NCBI GenBank assembly: GCA_018897105.1
Contig: JAHILF010000075.1
Span: 1-64,000 of the forward strand
Reading direction: 5' to 3'
Source: Pseudomonadota bacterium
Lineage (GTDB): Bacteria; Desulfobacterota; Desulfobulbia; Desulfobulbales; SURF-16
Length of the DNA: 64,000 bases
A program made the position numbers and the translations under genes. The notes beneath the pieces were generated by a model. That model did not search any database. It was not told where the DNA came from and worked only from the letters and a program-made list of their open reading frames with translations. Shown here piece by piece: positions 23,006-59,491 of this stretch (positions within the stretch are counted from its first letter, which is position 1; each line of letters starts with the position of its first letter).

Positions 23006-23062
23006 CCCTGTTTTTCCTCAGATATACATCGCTGCTCCTTGTCCTCGGAAGCAGATCAACAT

Positions 23063-23258
23063 TGTTTGCAGGCAGGTTTTCTGACTCCCGGATTGTCCTA
23101 ATGGCCGCGCCTTCCCAGCCCGGTCCCGTAGAGAAAAAATCACTCTCTGCGGATACCTGAAAGCAAGTGGCATGTTGCGGTTTTCGTCCCCGGTTACAGC
23201 GGCGGGCCCGTCCCTGATTCACACAGGGTTCCCTATTAAGCTCGGTTAAGAGCGCCTG
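23063..23258 (-). ncRNA. Cobalamin (B12) riboswitch
   Basis: On the minus strand the conserved aptamer blocks appear in order: AGGGAACCCTGTG, then CGCCGCTGTAACCG, then ATGCCACTTGC, then GGGAAGG, and finally AGTCAGAAAACCTGCC. This is the class-I cobalamin element. Adenosylcobalamin binding represses in known cases. It controls the whole downstream uptake operon, from the leader gene to btuD, through the terminator at 22966-23005. Confidence 0.93.
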
Positions 23259-23270
23259 AAAATTCTACTA

Positions 23271-23299
23271 TAAATAATGGCAAAAAAACAGGAAGTCAA
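23271..23299 (-). promoter_or_regulatory. Promoter of B12 uptake operon
   Basis: TTGACT (23299-23294), a 17-base spacer and TATTTA (23276-23271) lie on the minus strand, about 15 bases before the first conserved aptamer bases. Confidence 0.6.
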
Positions 23300-37449: not shown

Positions 37450-38268
37450 TTATTTTGCCGCCAGGGCGGCCAGCAGGCTGTCCCGCATGATATCTATGGG
37501 GGCTTGTCTACCGGTCCACAGCTCAAACTGGGCCACGCCCTGGTAGAGCAGCATGGCCAGGCCGTTTACCACCTGGCAGCCGGCCTCTTTGGCCTCGCTA
37601 AGCAGTTTCGTTTCCTGGGGGGCATAGACGATATCCATCACCACGGTAAAGCGGGGAAGGCATGCTTGCGGCACCAGGCTGGCCTCGGTGTGTGGGGCCA
37701 TGCCCACCGAGGTGGCGTTCACCAGGCAATCCGCGGCGAGATCGGCAATTTCCTCCAAAGCATGCCAGGGGCAGCCCAGGGTCTCGGCCAACTCAATACC
37801 CTTTGCGGCCGTCCGGCTGGCCAGCATGATTTGCGCGCCCGCCTCCAGCAGACCGAAGCCGATGGCCCGGGCCGAGCCCCCCGCCCCCAGTATCAGCACT
37901 TTTTTACCGGGCAGAGCGGTTTTTTCCGCCAGAGCCCGGTTGGCGCCCAACCAATCGGTATTATGACCAATGATCCTGCCATGTTGAATGTCCAGGGTGT
38001 TCACTGCCCCGATTTTTGCCGCCACCGGGTCAATGTTGTCGAGCAGGGCGATCACCGCCTGCTTATGGGGGATGGTGACGCTCACCCCTCTGATGCCCAG
38101 GGCCCTGAAGCCGGCCATGGCCGCAGCCACATCGCTGACCGGAAAGGGCACGTAGGCGGCGTTCAGGTCCAGGGCGGCAAAGGCACTGTTATGCATGGCC
38201 GGGCTGAGGCTGTGGCTCACCGGATTACCCATGATGCCGTGGATGACGGTGCGGCCGTTAATCTGCAT
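37450..38268 (-). CDS. aroE: Shikimate dehydrogenase
   Basis: 272 residues. The substrate site MGNPVSHSLSPAMHNSAF at the N-terminus, the catalytic Lys in VTIPHKQAVI and the NADP loop GAGGSARAIGFGL are visible. It reduces 3-dehydroshikimate to shikimate. It overlaps the end of aroD by 11 bases, so the two are coupled. Confidence 0.94.
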   Translation of the reverse strand: MQINGRTVIHGIMGNPVSHSLSPAMHNSAFAALDLNAAYVPFPVSDVAAAMAGFRALGIRGVSVTIPHKQAVIALLDNIDPVAAKIGAVNTLDIQHGRIIGHNTDWLGANRALAEKTALPGKKVLILGAGGSARAIGFGLLEAGAQIMLASRTAAKGIELAETLGCPWHALEEIADLAADCLVNATSVGMAPHTEASLVPQACLPRFTVVMDIVYAPQETKLLSEAKEAGCQVVNGLAMLLYQGVAQFELWTGRQAPIDIMRDSLLAALAAK

Positions 38269-38974
38269 GGGAGAAGCTCTTCAGGCAATTGAACAGATCG
38301 GCTGCGGCAAGCTGGCCCGGGGCCGTGGCCTCCTCTTCATTGAGGGCGGCATAGGTCATGAATCCTCCCAGCTCCAAGGTAGCGAGCCGGCTGATCATGC
38401 CGGCCCTTCCCATGCAGAAGGCGATAAGCGGGAACCCCTGTAGGTGGGCCTGCTCCTGCAGCTGCAGGACCCGGAGCACATCGCTGAAATCATGGGCCAT
38501 GGTGACGATTTTACCGATATGGGCGCCGGAATCTCGCTGCCGGACAAAAATATCATTGAGCGCGGCGACACCTGGTGTTTCGCTGAAATTGTGCCAGGAG
38601 ATGATCACCCGGGTTTGCATTGTCTTTTTGGCCGCATCACAGAGGAGTTGCACCGCGGCCTGATCGCTGTTGAGTTCGATATCCACATAGGCTGCCCCTC
38701 CTCGCACGGCCTGCAAGAGCAGGCCGTGCCGATTTTCTTCAGGAGCTCTGCACTGTCCGCCTTCCCAAAGGGGCCGGTTGGTGAAGAGCAGGGGGGTGTC
38801 AAGCGCCTGGGTAAAGGGCTCGATGGCTGGCGCAGTCAGGCTGTCCAGCCTGATTTCAATGACATCCGCGTGGGGCTTGGCCTGTAATGCCGCCTGGATG
38901 GCCGTGTCGATATCCGGCCGGGCAATGGCAACACAGACCAGGCCTGCAGCTGAACCTTTTATTTCATGGGGCAT
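38258..38974 (-). CDS. aroD: Type I 3-dehydroquinate dehydratase
   Basis: 238 residues. ADVIEIRLDSL, the Schiff-base Lys in IGKIVTMAHD and a His in ISWHNF fit the type I fold, together with AFCMGRAGMISRLAT near the end. It forms 3-dehydroshikimate in the same pathway as its aroE and aroA neighbours. It is first in the operon; its promoter must lie in the structured region upstream. Confidence 0.93.
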   Translation of the reverse strand: MPHEIKGSAAGLVCVAIARPDIDTAIQAALQAKPHADVIEIRLDSLTAPAIEPFTQALDTPLLFTNRPLWEGGQCRAPEENRHGLLLQAVRGGAAYVDIELNSDQAAVQLLCDAAKKTMQTRVIISWHNFSETPGVAALNDIFVRQRDSGAHIGKIVTMAHDFSDVLRVLQLQEQAHLQGFPLIAFCMGRAGMISRLATLELGGFMTYAALNEEEATAPGQLAAADLFNCLKSFSHAD

Positions 38975-39269
38975 TGTTGTCTCCGACGGAAATAGAAAAA
39001 AGCAATCTCTAAAATTATTCTATCGCCTGACACTTGTCAACCTGCTTGATTCCTGCAAGGCTTTTTTGCCGAAAGTAACAGTGTTTTTTTGGTTTGGGTC
39101 ATTTAACCAAATCCGGAGATTCAATGCGGTGATTTGCCCAATATAAGCCAGTTAATTTCCTACTCGCCTGCCTGGCTCAGGGAGGAATATTGTCTTAAAT
39201 TGTTGTGATTACAATTTGTTATGGAGAAAAAACATTAAGGGGGTACAGTGTGGTATGTGTATTGCTTAA
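38975..39269. other. AT-rich leader/promoter region of aroD
   Basis: Holds a small hairpin (TTTGGTT at 39088-39094, AACCAAA at 39105-39111) and no gene. It should contain the aro operon promoter on the minus strand. Confidence 0.4.
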
Positions 39270-39460
39270 TAAAAAGGACAAAAGCCGCAAGCGGCTTAAC
39301 ACCTTTCTCCTTTGGTGTTTGACTCTCCTCCTAAGAGTCAGTGATTCCTCCAAAGTCCTAGATGCTGGGGTCAACCATCAGGTATCGGCAAATAGGCAAA
39401 GTGTTCTCAACCCTCAGGCCCCGGGAGTTCTCCCTCCCGGGGCCTCCTCCTTTTTTAACC
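39270..39460 (-). ncRNA. Candidate structured small RNA with GGA-loop hairpins
   Basis: Four hairpins in 190 bases and no credible gene. Read on the minus strand, they present GGAGAA (39433-39428), TAGGAGG (39333-39327) and AAAGGAGAAA (39313-39304) in loops closed by stems of 12, 7 and 6 bp. About ten GGA triplets occur in all. The RNA would end at hairpin AAGCCGC-GCGGCTT (39297-39282) followed by a T-rich tail. GGA in loops is the CsrA/RsmA-binding signature of CsrB/RsmZ-type RNAs. The strand is not proven: the plus strand ends in an even better terminator. Confidence 0.45.
39416..39456 (+). terminator. Strong GC-rich hairpin with T-run
   Basis: A 12-bp perfect stem (39416-39427 with 39434-39445) with a 6-base loop is followed by CCTCC and T6. 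On the plus strand it is a standard terminator. On the minus strand the same stem would display GGAGAA in its loop. Confidence 0.6.
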
Positions 39461-39610
39461 CCCTGGTTTTTCACCGCTTCCTTGTCCGTCAGCCCATGAT
39501 ATCATTTGCATTACTCCCCTCTGGTTTGTTAGTATTTCGTTACGTGACCAACCAAATTGTCTGAGTAGTACCTATCCTTAAATAAAGATGAACCAAAGTC
39601 AGGTGAGGGT

Positions 39611-40153
39611 ATGATAAGGCTCTTTGTGGCTGTTGATTTGCCTGAAAATATTAAAGATGAACTCGGCCGCATCTGTTTCGGCCTGCCCGGGGCCAAATGG
39701 GTGCCCCCGGACCAACTGCATCTCACCCTGCGCTTTATCGGCGAGGTGGATGGAGGCCTTTTCCGGGAAATTCGCGAGGATCTGGAAAACGTGGAAGCCA
39801 AAGGGTTCCCCATGCGTTTGCAGGGGCTCGGGTATTTCCCGTCCAGAAAGGAGCCGAGGGTTCTCTGGGTGGGCATGGAAAAATCCGAGCTGCTGCTGCA
39901 GTTGCGAAAAAGGGTAGACCGGCAGCTTACCCAGCTGGGCATCCCGGCGGAAAAGCGAAATTTCTCACCCCATATCACCATCGCCAGGCTCAAGGAAACC
40001 CCACTGGTCAGGCTGACCAATTTTCTCTCCGGCAACGCCCTTTTTTCCCTGCCGGAGTTTCAGGTTGACAGCTTTTATCTCTACTCGAGTGTTCTCACGC
40101 CAAAGGGGGCGATTCACCAGCAGGAAGGTGCCTATTCGCTGGCTGAAACGTAA
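39611..40153 (+). CDS. thpR: RNA 2',3'-cyclic phosphodiesterase (2H family)
   Basis: 180 residues. Two HxTx motifs define the 2H phosphoesterase fold: HLTLRF (about 37) and HITIAR (about 118). RLFVAVDLPE at the N-terminus and SVLTPKGAIHQQEG near the end are typical of ThpR/LigT. It opens 2',3'-cyclic phosphates on RNA. It has its own promoter region downstream of the candidate small RNA. Confidence 0.9.
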   Translation: MIRLFVAVDLPENIKDELGRICFGLPGAKWVPPDQLHLTLRFIGEVDGGLFREIREDLENVEAKGFPMRLQGLGYFPSRKEPRVLWVGMEKSELLLQLRKRVDRQLTQLGIPAEKRNFSPHITIARLKETPLVRLTNFLSGNALFSLPEFQVDSFYLYSSVLTPKGAIHQQEGAYSLAET

Positions 40154-43048: not shown

Positions 43049-44446
43049 CTATTTTTTCTGCAGATATTCGTCGATACTAAAACCGCTTTCCTCATATTTT
43101 TTTAATTTGCGCCACAGTGATACCCTGTCGATGCTCATGATCTTGGCAGCCTGGCTTTTGTTGCCGTCCACGCTCTTCAGAACCGACATGATATAGTCGC
43201 GCTCGTGATTCTCCAGGGTCTGCGCCGGCTTATCCGCCTTGGCTGCCGTGGTGAAATGGAGCTGATGGGTGCCGAATTCCGGCGGCAGGTGATAGGCCTT
43301 GATTTCCGGTTCACCACACAAGGCCAAGGTTCTCTCAATGATGTTTTCCAGTTCACGGACATTGCCGGGGTATTCATAATCCTGCAGCATGTCAAGCGCC
43401 TTTGGCTCAATGGATTTTATCTTCCCCTCGGGCGCAGGATATTTTGCCAGAAAATGGTGGACAATGAGCGGGATGTCATCCTTGCGATCCCGCAGAGGGG
43501 GGATATGGAGCGACACCACGTTGAGCCGGTAATAGAGATCCTGGCGGAACCGGCCCCGCTGCACCTCTTCCTGCAGGTCCCTGTTGGTGGCAGCCAGGAC
43601 GCGGACATCAACCGGTACTTCCTTGGTGCCTCCCACCCTGATGATCTTTTTTTCCTGCAGGACCCTCAGCAGTTTGACCTGCATGTTCAAAGGCATTTCC
43701 CCAATTTCATCGAGCAGCACCACGCCGCCGTCAGCCGATTCGAGAAGGCCTTTGCGCCATTTGGATGCTCCGGTAAAGGCATCCTTTTCATGGCCGAAGA
43801 GTTCGTTCAGCATGAGTTCTTCGGTCAATGCCCCACAGTTGATCGGTAGAAAGCGTTTGTTGGCCCTGGGACTCAGTTCATAAATGGTGCGGGCAACGAG
43901 TTCCTTGCCGGTGCCTGTATCACCGATGATGAGAACATTACAGTCGAGATGGGCAACCTGGGCAATATTATCCTTGAGCTTCAGAACAGCGGGATTTTGC
44001 CCGACAAACTGGGTAACCCCCTTTTTTGACATGATATGCTGCTTGAGACGGGATATTTCATTTCTCAGTAGGGTCTTTTCCAGGGCTTTTTTGACCAGGG
44101 CGCGCAGCTCGTTGAGTTTAATCGGTTTGGCCATGTAGTAAAACGCGCCTTCCGCCATTGCCTCCACCGCAGAATTCACCGTGGCGTAGCCTGTTATGAT
44201 GATCACCTCGGCATCAGGTTGCATTTCCTTGGCAATATTCATTACCTGAACACCATCAATGTCGGGCATTTTCAGATCGGTTATGATCAGGTCAAATTGG
44301 TTGTGGCTAATATTTTCCACCGCCTCATTGCCGCAGGAGGCGGTTTCAACGTGATAACCCTCCTTGGTTAAAACGTGATGGATATTCTGCAGATTGATAA
44401 TCTCATCATCAACTACAAGTATGCGTATTGCTTTGTCTTCTTGCAT
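43049..44446 (-). CDS. NtrC-family sigma-54-dependent response regulator
   Basis: 465 residues. Receiver (Asp57 in LIITDLKMPDIDG; Lys in YYMAKPIKL), AAA+ domain (Walker A GDTGTGKE, sigma-54 contact loop DAFTGA where GAFTGA is usual, Walker B VVLLDEIGEM), and a Fis-type HTH (NKSQAAKIMSIDRVSLWRKL). Phosphorylation would allow enhancer binding and activation of sigma-54 promoters. It starts 14 bases after the kinase gene. A sigma-54 promoter with upstream palindromes at 53.4-53.7 kb is the best nearby target. Confidence 0.93.
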   Translation of the reverse strand: MQEDKAIRILVVDDEIINLQNIHHVLTKEGYHVETASCGNEAVENISHNQFDLIITDLKMPDIDGVQVMNIAKEMQPDAEVIIITGYATVNSAVEAMAEGAFYYMAKPIKLNELRALVKKALEKTLLRNEISRLKQHIMSKKGVTQFVGQNPAVLKLKDNIAQVAHLDCNVLIIGDTGTGKELVARTIYELSPRANKRFLPINCGALTEELMLNELFGHEKDAFTGASKWRKGLLESADGGVVLLDEIGEMPLNMQVKLLRVLQEKKIIRVGGTKEVPVDVRVLAATNRDLQEEVQRGRFRQDLYYRLNVVSLHIPPLRDRKDDIPLIVHHFLAKYPAPEGKIKSIEPKALDMLQDYEYPGNVRELENIIERTLALCGEPEIKAYHLPPEFGTHQLHFTTAAKADKPAQTLENHERDYIMSVLKSVDGNKSQAAKIMSIDRVSLWRKLKKYEESGFSIDEYLQKK

Positions 44447-44460
44447 TTTTTTATGTCGGG

Positions 44461-45906
44461 TTAAGATTCGAGTGATTTGGGTTTTTCAAAGGCAAGGGGC
44501 AATGTGATGATAAATTTTGTACCCTGCCCTAACTTGCTTTCAACCTTGATCGTGCCGCTATGCTTTTTGATGATGCCATAAACGACCGCCAGGCCCAGGC
44601 CTGTTCCTTTGCCAACATTTTTGGTGGTGTAGAACGGATCAAAGATTTTTTGGATACTGTTCTCATCAATGCCTGTTCCCGTATCTTGGACAGTGATAAC
44701 CGCATTTTTGTTATCAGCGTCCGCGGCAGCTGTTATGGAGATGGTGCCGGGAGGTTCAGAGATTGCCTGAAGAGCATTTAACAGCAGATTGAGCAGGGCT
44801 TCCGTCATTTTCTGGATGTCGACTTTGACGGCAAGATCTGCCGGAATCTCTTTTTTGATTGCTATATCCGTCGGAACATCGCTTGAAACGAGACGGACGG
44901 CACGCTCCACGACATCGTCGAGAAATGCGGGCTGGATGGAGAAGGTCTGAGCTCTGGAAAACTCAAGCAATCCCTTGACCGTTTCGCTGGCCCGATGGGT
45001 TTCCTGTTCGATGTTCTTAAGTAACCCCTCGATAAATTGGCAGTCACCTTCTTTGAGTTCGGAAAGTGCTATCTGGCAGGAGGTGGAGATATTATTGAGT
45101 GGATTATTGAGCTGATGGGCGGTGCCGGACGCCAGCGTGCCGATGGAGGACAGTTTTTTTGCCTGGAAAAGCTGTTCCTGCTGTTCCTCAATTTCCTTAA
45201 CCATTTTATTGAAGGCGCGCAGGACACTATGCAGTTCATCTTTTTTGTCCGGAAGAGGCAGCGGTTTAAAACTATTCTTGGCAATGGTATGAGCCGCAAC
45301 CTCGATCATTTTCAGCGGCCTGATCAGGGTCTTGAATATCATAACCGTGGTGAAAATAGTGAAAACACCCAGCAGCAGAAGATAAAAAAAGAGCTGTATC
45401 TGAAAATGCTGAACAAAACTGCTCAGTTTGTTCTGTTCGAAAATAACGAATTCATCACTTAAGGCGATCAGTTCCTTGCCTAATGTCCGCAAGAGCTCAC
45501 GGCCATCGTTTAAGAGTTTTATTTCATGTTCGCTGCATATCTCACAGTTGTCTTTCAATGCCTTGAATGCTGAACGGTACTGCTGGAGTTTCGTCTCGAT
45601 TTTTCCGACAAGTTGAGGTTTCGGCCTGTTGATATCATTCTGTAAAAATGCCAGATATTCAATAGCCTCATTGATATATTTCTGGGCCGTCAGGAAATCT
45701 TCCAGCTCGCTGCGCATGATGTAATTTTTCTCGTAACGCCTGATCTCAAGACTGGTGTTGCTGAGTCTGATGGCCCGAATAAGAATGGTGACATCCTCAT
45801 TGAATTTTCCAAAATCATTATAAAGGAACGCACCTAATGAAATAAAAAATGCAAGATTCGAAACGAAAAAGCCCAGCATTTTTTGTCGTAAAGTAAAGTG
45901 AAACAT
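44461..45906 (-). CDS. Membrane sensor histidine kinase
   Basis: 481 residues. TM1 (about 10-30), an extracytoplasmic helical sensor (about 32-170) with a CEICSEHE motif, TM2 (about 170-192), HAMP, HisKA with SGTAHQLNNPLNNIS, and HATPase_c (GTGLGLAVVYGIIKKHSG). Partner of the NtrC-type regulator encoded immediately downstream. The Cys pair in the sensor may bind metal or sense redox, which is speculation. It has a promoter at 46086-46114 and a leader of about 180 bases. Confidence 0.92.
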   Translation of the reverse strand: MFHFTLRQKMLGFFVSNLAFFISLGAFLYNDFGKFNEDVTILIRAIRLSNTSLEIRRYEKNYIMRSELEDFLTAQKYINEAIEYLAFLQNDINRPKPQLVGKIETKLQQYRSAFKALKDNCEICSEHEIKLLNDGRELLRTLGKELIALSDEFVIFEQNKLSSFVQHFQIQLFFYLLLLGVFTIFTTVMIFKTLIRPLKMIEVAAHTIAKNSFKPLPLPDKKDELHSVLRAFNKMVKEIEEQQEQLFQAKKLSSIGTLASGTAHQLNNPLNNISTSCQIALSELKEGDCQFIEGLLKNIEQETHRASETVKGLLEFSRAQTFSIQPAFLDDVVERAVRLVSSDVPTDIAIKKEIPADLAVKVDIQKMTEALLNLLLNALQAISEPPGTISITAAADADNKNAVITVQDTGTGIDENSIQKIFDPFYTTKNVGKGTGLGLAVVYGIIKKHSGTIKVESKLGQGTKFIITLPLAFEKPKSLES

Positions 45907-56595: not shown

Positions 56596-56684
56596 AGCAA
56601 GATGGCATGCTTTGCTGCGGAAAGGATTTTCATACAAACAGGCTAAACACCTACAGGCTATTCCCTGAAGTTATATAAAAAAAA

Positions 56685-57038
56685 AGGAGTGGGCTATAAG
56701 CCGAATTCTGTACCCCTGACGGGGCCATGATCATTTATCTGGGATGCCGGTCACCCGGCACCTCTTGCAACCTACCCGAAAGCTTCGGACGGGCAGCCCT
56801 CAAACGCTTTCCTATTTGGTCTTACTCCGGATGGGGTTTGCCGTGCCTTCCATGTCGCCATGAAAGCGGTGAGCTCTTACCTCGCCGTTTCACCCTTACC
56901 CCGGAAAACCGGGGCGGTCTGTTTTCTGTGGCACTTTCCCAGGGTCGCCCCCGGTTCGCGTTACGAACCATCCTGCCCTGCGGAGTCCGGACTTTCCTCA
57001 CCGACGACCTGCGCCGGCGCGATCATGCGCCCACTCCT
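56685..57038 (-). ncRNA. rnpB: RNase P RNA (bacterial class A)
   Basis: On the minus strand the RNA starts AGGAGTGGGC and ends GCCCACTCCT, which form P1. Conserved internal blocks are visible: GAGGAAAGTCCGGAC near the 5' end, CAGGGTGAAACGG-type sequence in the middle, and the 3' CAGAATTCGGCTTATAG. A T-run follows (56684-56677), serving as terminator. RNase P RNA is the catalyst for tRNA 5' maturation. The first 16 bases overlap the 3' end of the RNase HI-like gene. Confidence 0.94.
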
Positions 57039-59414: not shown

Positions 59415-59491
59415 TGGTGGGCCTACCTGGACTCGAACCAGGGACCGACCGGTTATGAGCCGGTGGCTCTAGCCAACTGAGCTATAGGCCC
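59415..59491 (-). tRNA. tRNA with anticodon CAU, probably tRNA-Ile2
   Basis: Minus strand, 77 bases with encoded CCA. The acceptor stem is GGGCCTA/TAGGCCC, D-arm GCTCAGTTGG, anticodon loop CTCATAA (CAU), and T-loop GGTTCGAGTCC. A CAU anticodon could be Met or lysidine-modified Ile2. The GGGCCTA acceptor is the usual bacterial tRNA-Ile acceptor, which favours Ile2 (requires TilS). Certainty about the type is moderate. Confidence 0.9.

Follow-up and report, generated by a model that had tools for sequence, protein, structure and literature searches.

A conserved intergenic RNA element with exposed CUCC words and a sigma-54-type promoter, probably an anti-Shine-Dalgarno small RNA of Desulfurivibrio-like bacteria

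In an uncultured Desulfurivibrio-like bacterium, the intergenic region between two ordinary genes, aroD and thpR, was found to harbor a conserved, structured element which, as judged from its sequence, probably represents an independent gene of about 180 nt for a trans-acting, sigma-54-controlled anti-Shine-Dalgarno (anti-SD) small RNA that would block the translation of many mRNAs without Hfq. The element is part of a 64-kb stretch of DNA, the whole of which is referred to here as the window. An earlier, sequence-only reading had placed four hairpins into a gene-free stretch at this location and had offered two interpretations, whereby a CsrA-titrating RNA on the minus strand was named before an anti-SD RNA on the plus strand. 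The gene-free stretch and its hairpins were borne out, while their number was not, as the fold gives five stem-loops instead of four. Of the two interpretations, the one relating to the plus strand is supported by the conservation of sequence and stems, the promoter, the terminator, the asymmetry of G-U pairs and the independence from thpR, each of which is described below. The coordinates of all features are given in Table 1.

Table 1. Features of the aroD-thpR region, given in positions of the window
Feature	Position	Strand	Remarks
aroD (type I dehydroquinase)	38258-38974	-	flanks the RNA element
Candidate activator operator, imperfect dyad ATTACA-N3-TGTTAT	39208-39222		weak; ~60 bp upstream of the start
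Sigma-54-type promoter TGGTATGTGTATTGCT, -24 GG, -12 GC, 10-nt spacing	39251-39266	+	10/12 consensus positions
Small RNA gene (predicted)	39277-39456	+	start inferred from promoter, end from terminator; ~180 nt
Hairpin 1, AAGCCGC/GCGGCTT	39282-39297	+	in genera g1 and g7, absent from g6; 68.8% of cells paired
Hairpin 2, loop UUUCUCCUUU, anti-SD motif 1	39299-39318	+	CTCC of the loop with unpaired probability 0.97
Hairpin 3, GACUCU-CCUCCUA-AGAGUC, loop CCUCCUA, anti-SD motif 2	39321-39339	+	near-invariant
Single-stranded linker AGUGAUUCCUCCAAAGU, anti-SD motif 3	39340-39356	+	unpaired probability 0.64
Hairpin 4, bipartite stem topped by a small hairpin	39357-39396	+	holds most of the covariation
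Intrinsic terminator, 12-bp stem (39416-39445) and CCUCCUUUUUU tail	39416-39457	+	anti-SD motif 4 overlaps the U tract
thpR (2'-5' RNA ligase/LigT phosphoesterase)	39611-40153	+	other flank, downstream of the RNA

The plus strand of positions 39270-39460 folds with -70.4 kcal/mol as compared to -49.2 +/- 3.9 kcal/mol for shuffled sequences (z -5.4; 0 of 200 shuffles), and the strong terminator which had been claimed for this strand was found as a stem of 12 pairs followed by a U-rich tail. CUCC or CCUCC words locate to the loops of hairpins 2 and 3, to the linker, to the terminator loop and to the tail, with four CUCC words showing an unpaired probability of at least 0.9. For the CTCC of the hairpin 2 loop this value amounts to 0.97 and for the CTCC at 39328, residing in the hairpin 3 loop, to 1.0, in agreement with the earlier claim that the plus-strand loops expose such words. 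The anti-SD motifs are not identical to each other, as they read CUCUCC, CCUCCUA (or CUCCUCCUA), UUCCUCC and GCCUCC. Over the 180 nt, a total of 8 CTCC words was counted, as compared to a shuffle mean of 2.7 and with 8 being reached in 1 of 2000 shuffles, and the element is the densest CTCC stretch of the 64-kb window when both strands are counted.

A DNA search covering 58 relatives identified the element in eight genomes including the source, all belonging to one family; it thus occurs in 8 of the 22 family genomes, in a single copy each, and these eight represent three genera. The covariance search for homologues that the sequence-only reading had proposed was carried out with a model built from these eight sequences, which, when searched back, recovered all eight and in addition a degenerate syntenic copy in the genus member G003 (35.7 bits). 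Searches of 194 genomes of the order, 258 genomes of the class and 395 genomes sampled from the phylum revealed no further full-length relative. Weak matches of the model in G017, G009, G104, G114, G358 and G423 (23-26 bits) were rejected; those inspected reflect the terminator hairpin or chance pairing, and the two at phylum level cover the terminator part only. Across 84,980 species genomes the exact hairpin 3 pattern matched only in six MAGs, labelled Desulfurivibrio sp. SURF_16, Desulfobulbaceae, Deltaproteobacteria or Proteobacteria. In the degenerate copy of G003 (L017, 1501-1674) the terminator is retained and the CCUCC loops are gone, and hence G003 appears to have lost the functional RNA, which would be dispensable there.

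Within the eight homologues, mean pairwise identity was 0.93 for hairpin 3, 0.88 for the linker (39340-39357) and 0.81 for the terminator, as compared to 0.40 for the upstream DNA, and 94.5% of the cells are paired across the alignment. The sequence-only reading had made its case depend on stems being preserved by compensatory changes, and such changes were identified: seven pairs have changed on both sides as compared to a shuffle mean of 2.8 (0 of 500 shuffles), whereby shifting the pairing partners abolishes the signal; as the alignment comprises only eight sequences, which are related, the control gives an indication and no formal probability. Covariation resides mostly in hairpin 4, where the pair types AU/GC/UA/GU and UA/UG/CG were found, and to some extent in hairpin 1 and in the terminator, the stem of which is 100% paired in 8 of 8 sequences and includes one double change from C-G to U-A; the U tract is poor in G018 (L008). 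Hairpin 3 on its own is uninformative on pairing because it is nearly invariant, and the loop of hairpin 2 reads CUCUCC or CCUCCUCC in the relatives. It is the single strands bearing CUCC that have been retained as a set. A coding function of the 119-aa open reading frame at 39205-39564 was rejected, since the homologues differ by indels of 1, 2 and 4 nt, which are not multiples of three, and the element is hence considered non-coding.

A start of transcription near 39277, just 5' of hairpin 1, is suggested by the position of the sigma-54-type promoter. Seven of the eight homologues possess a 9-10/12 match to the sigma-54 consensus, located at -68 to -71 relative to hairpin 3, with chance expectations in 250 nt of this window of about 0.02 for a 10/12 match and about 0.16 for a 9/12 match. 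In L006 the -12 element reads GT instead of GC, and in G010 (L007) a recognizable sigma-54 promoter is missing, which, like the poor U tract of G018 and the degenerate copy of G003, counts against the proposed reading. RpoN is encoded in all 22 family genomes, and a scan for sigma-70 promoters identified none. The dyad upstream of the promoter, roughly retained by eye in five genus members and not seen in g6 and g7, is only a suggestion for the operator of an activator. About 4 kb from the RNA, the window encodes on its minus strand (43049-45906) an NtrC-type response regulator with a sigma-54 interaction domain and an adjoining HAMP histidine kinase, and in G003 an NtrC-type regulator immediately follows thpR. 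A role of this neighboring pair as the regulator of the RNA is not supported by co-occurrence: G005 and G011 possess the RNA and kinases of only 36-37% identity, and G003 possesses the close kinase and only a degenerate RNA.

While the gene, its strand-specific signals, its structure and the exposed motifs were shown by the analysis, transcription, activator, targets and effect of the RNA are inferred from sequence and can be arranged into the following course of events. Sigma-54 RNA polymerase, together with an enhancer-binding protein, would start the RNA at about 39277, and transcription would end at the conserved terminator. As shown by folding and conservation, CUCC and CCUCC words are held unpaired in the 3' tail, the linker and two hairpin loops. 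With their likeness to CACCUCCUUUCU, the 3' tail of 16S rRNA, these words are complementary to GGAG or GGAGG ribosome-binding sites and would be expected to pair with them. Such pairing may block loading of the 30S subunit and hence turn down many genes simultaneously at the level of translation, with no need for Hfq, and the several motifs may be redundant, a property known from NfeR1 (alpha-r14 family). A search for Hfq in the 22 family genomes identified none, with which an Hfq-independent mechanism fits, and the RNA is probably independent of Hfq. A target search in six genomes with ACTTTGGAGGAATCA, allowing two mismatches, yielded no conserved target. Sites at which pairing with a ribosome-binding site is extended were confined to single genomes, i.e., to genes which by eye, from their translations, encode a ferritin-like protein and a VapB-like antitoxin (both G001) and a lipoprotein (G005).

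These single-genome sites, together with the near-invariance of the whole of hairpin 3 and the linker, raise the question of whether the plus-strand sigma-54 RNA serves a few dedicated mRNAs or a protein ligand, with CCUCC being the seed of a small regulon. Conservation past CCUCC exceeds the demands of generic Shine-Dalgarno pairing, which is a hint in this direction; however, none of the extended-pairing sites recurs in another genome and generic pairing is favored by the redundancy of the several CUCC motifs, so that this alternative is considered rather unlikely, if worth keeping in mind. The idea of a 5' leader or attenuator of thpR takes up the location of the RNA upstream of this gene, both being encoded on one strand and separated by a terminator, but is contradicted by those genomes in which thpR has gone and the element persists. 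In G005, thpR resides on a different contig and the RNA still adjoins aroD, while in G001 thpR is found about 11.5 kb from the RNA, with the aroD side being cut by the contig end, and in both genomes no plus-strand gene of at least 90-100 aa was found close downstream of the RNA. Conversely, other genera possess thpR without the RNA, several of them with thpR still beside aroD. As the RNA is retained where thpR has moved and thpR occurs elsewhere without it, the RNA was considered a free-standing gene and the leader reading highly improbable. Directly upstream of the relocated thpR, short tandem repeats of the AGAAGCC and GACCAATAA types were observed (G001, L026). A functionless, C/T-rich intergenic stretch that is structured by chance is hardly credible given the conservation across three genera, the compensatory changes and the promoter at a fixed distance.

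The choice of strand decides upon the CsrA-titrating RNA, which would sequester the protein by about ten GGA in its loops, comparable to CsrB or RsmZ. The count of ten GGA on the minus strand was reproduced, each homologue holds 7-10 GGA and 5-8 AGGA there, the minus strand folds well too (z -4.9 as compared to shuffles), and CsrA is encoded in 19 of the 22 family genomes including the source. However, conserved UCC automatically entails conserved GGA on the opposite strand, and ANGGA occurs only 1-4 times per homologue. The thpR-side flank, where a minus-strand transcript would start, is unconserved and quite different, having been replaced, in G001 and G005, and a conserved minus-strand promoter was not found. 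The terminator hairpin proposed for this strand (39297-39282) exists here, but relatives lose either the hairpin or the T run. Moreover, the plus-strand structure involves 10 G-U pairs as compared to 4 A-C pairs, which correspond to G-U pairs on the other strand, and hence favors the plus strand. The likeness to CsrB, CsrC, RsmY and RsmZ, i.e., GGA-rich loops, therefore holds only if what appears to be the wrong strand is read. As the genome encodes CsrA, this reading is disfavored rather than impossible, and we regard it as very unlikely. Based on the sigma-54-type promoter, the terminator, the G-U asymmetry and the lack of conserved minus-strand signals, the plus strand is taken as the transcribed one with high, though not complete, confidence.

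Among known RNAs, the closest likeness in design to the proposed plus-strand anti-SD RNA was found for alpha-r14/NfeR1 and the cuckoo RNAs, including CcsR1-4 of Rhodobacter, which likewise possess several hairpins exposing anti-SD motifs in unpaired regions, pair at translation starts (PMC10746234; CcsR PMC10253847) and retain their loops while the stems diverge. NfeR1 of Sinorhizobium meliloti acts independently of Hfq and holds three redundant anti-SD motifs unpaired, with which it represses mRNAs at translation start (PMC10746234). Whereas alpha-r14 is an alphaproteobacterial RNA of 123 nt with three identical CCUCCUCCC motifs and a sigma-70 promoter, the RNA described here possesses non-identical motifs, about 180 nt, a sigma-54-type promoter and Desulfurivibrio-like hosts. 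At gathering score, an Rfam search of the whole window gave no match at the element, and a relaxed search revealed only sub-threshold matches to tfoR and ar14. Membership in alpha-r14/cuckoo (RF02344) was rejected because the match of 22.2 bits (E 0.057 when 671 bases were searched) stays below the gathering score, 58.8, and because a repeated identical motif is lacking, and tfoR (RF02100) was rejected likewise, as its match (24.1 bits versus 70) covers mostly the terminator hairpin.

Two further RNAs were compared by description. Pxr of Myxococcus xanthus is an intergenic small RNA with multiple stem-loops, the transcription of which apparently starts at a sigma-54 promoter (PMC5568312); it differs in being a 108-nt gene by nla19 for which CCUCC anti-SD loops were not reported. 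Dv_sRNA2 of Desulfovibrio vulgaris, a target of the response regulator DVU0679 (PMC3333781), is comparable as a small RNA that a sulfate reducer controls through a response regulator, but is located downstream of its own regulator gene. The literature searched did not yield a description of an anti-SD RNA that is controlled by sigma-54 or that occurs in this lineage. The proposal that the RNA founds an undescribed family of sigma-54-switched, Hfq-free anti-SD RNAs, which evolved independently of the alphaproteobacterial cuckoo RNAs and with which Desulfurivibrio-like bacteria globally slow down translation, is judged to be evenly balanced. To our knowledge, multi-motif anti-SD RNAs are mainly described from Alphaproteobacteria. 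If the proposal is true, the turning down of translation by anti-SD pairing would have arisen more than once, here under another class of promoter and in a lineage in which Hfq was not found, and sigma-54 signaling in sulfur-metabolizing bacteria would gain a post-transcriptional arm. The RNA element is of small size, is well delimited and lends itself to direct testing.

Elsewhere in the window, a cobalamin riboswitch (23054-23274, minus strand; Rfam RF00174, 103 bits), a class A RNase P RNA (56681-57038, minus strand; 325 bits) and a tRNA-Met (59415-59491) were identified.
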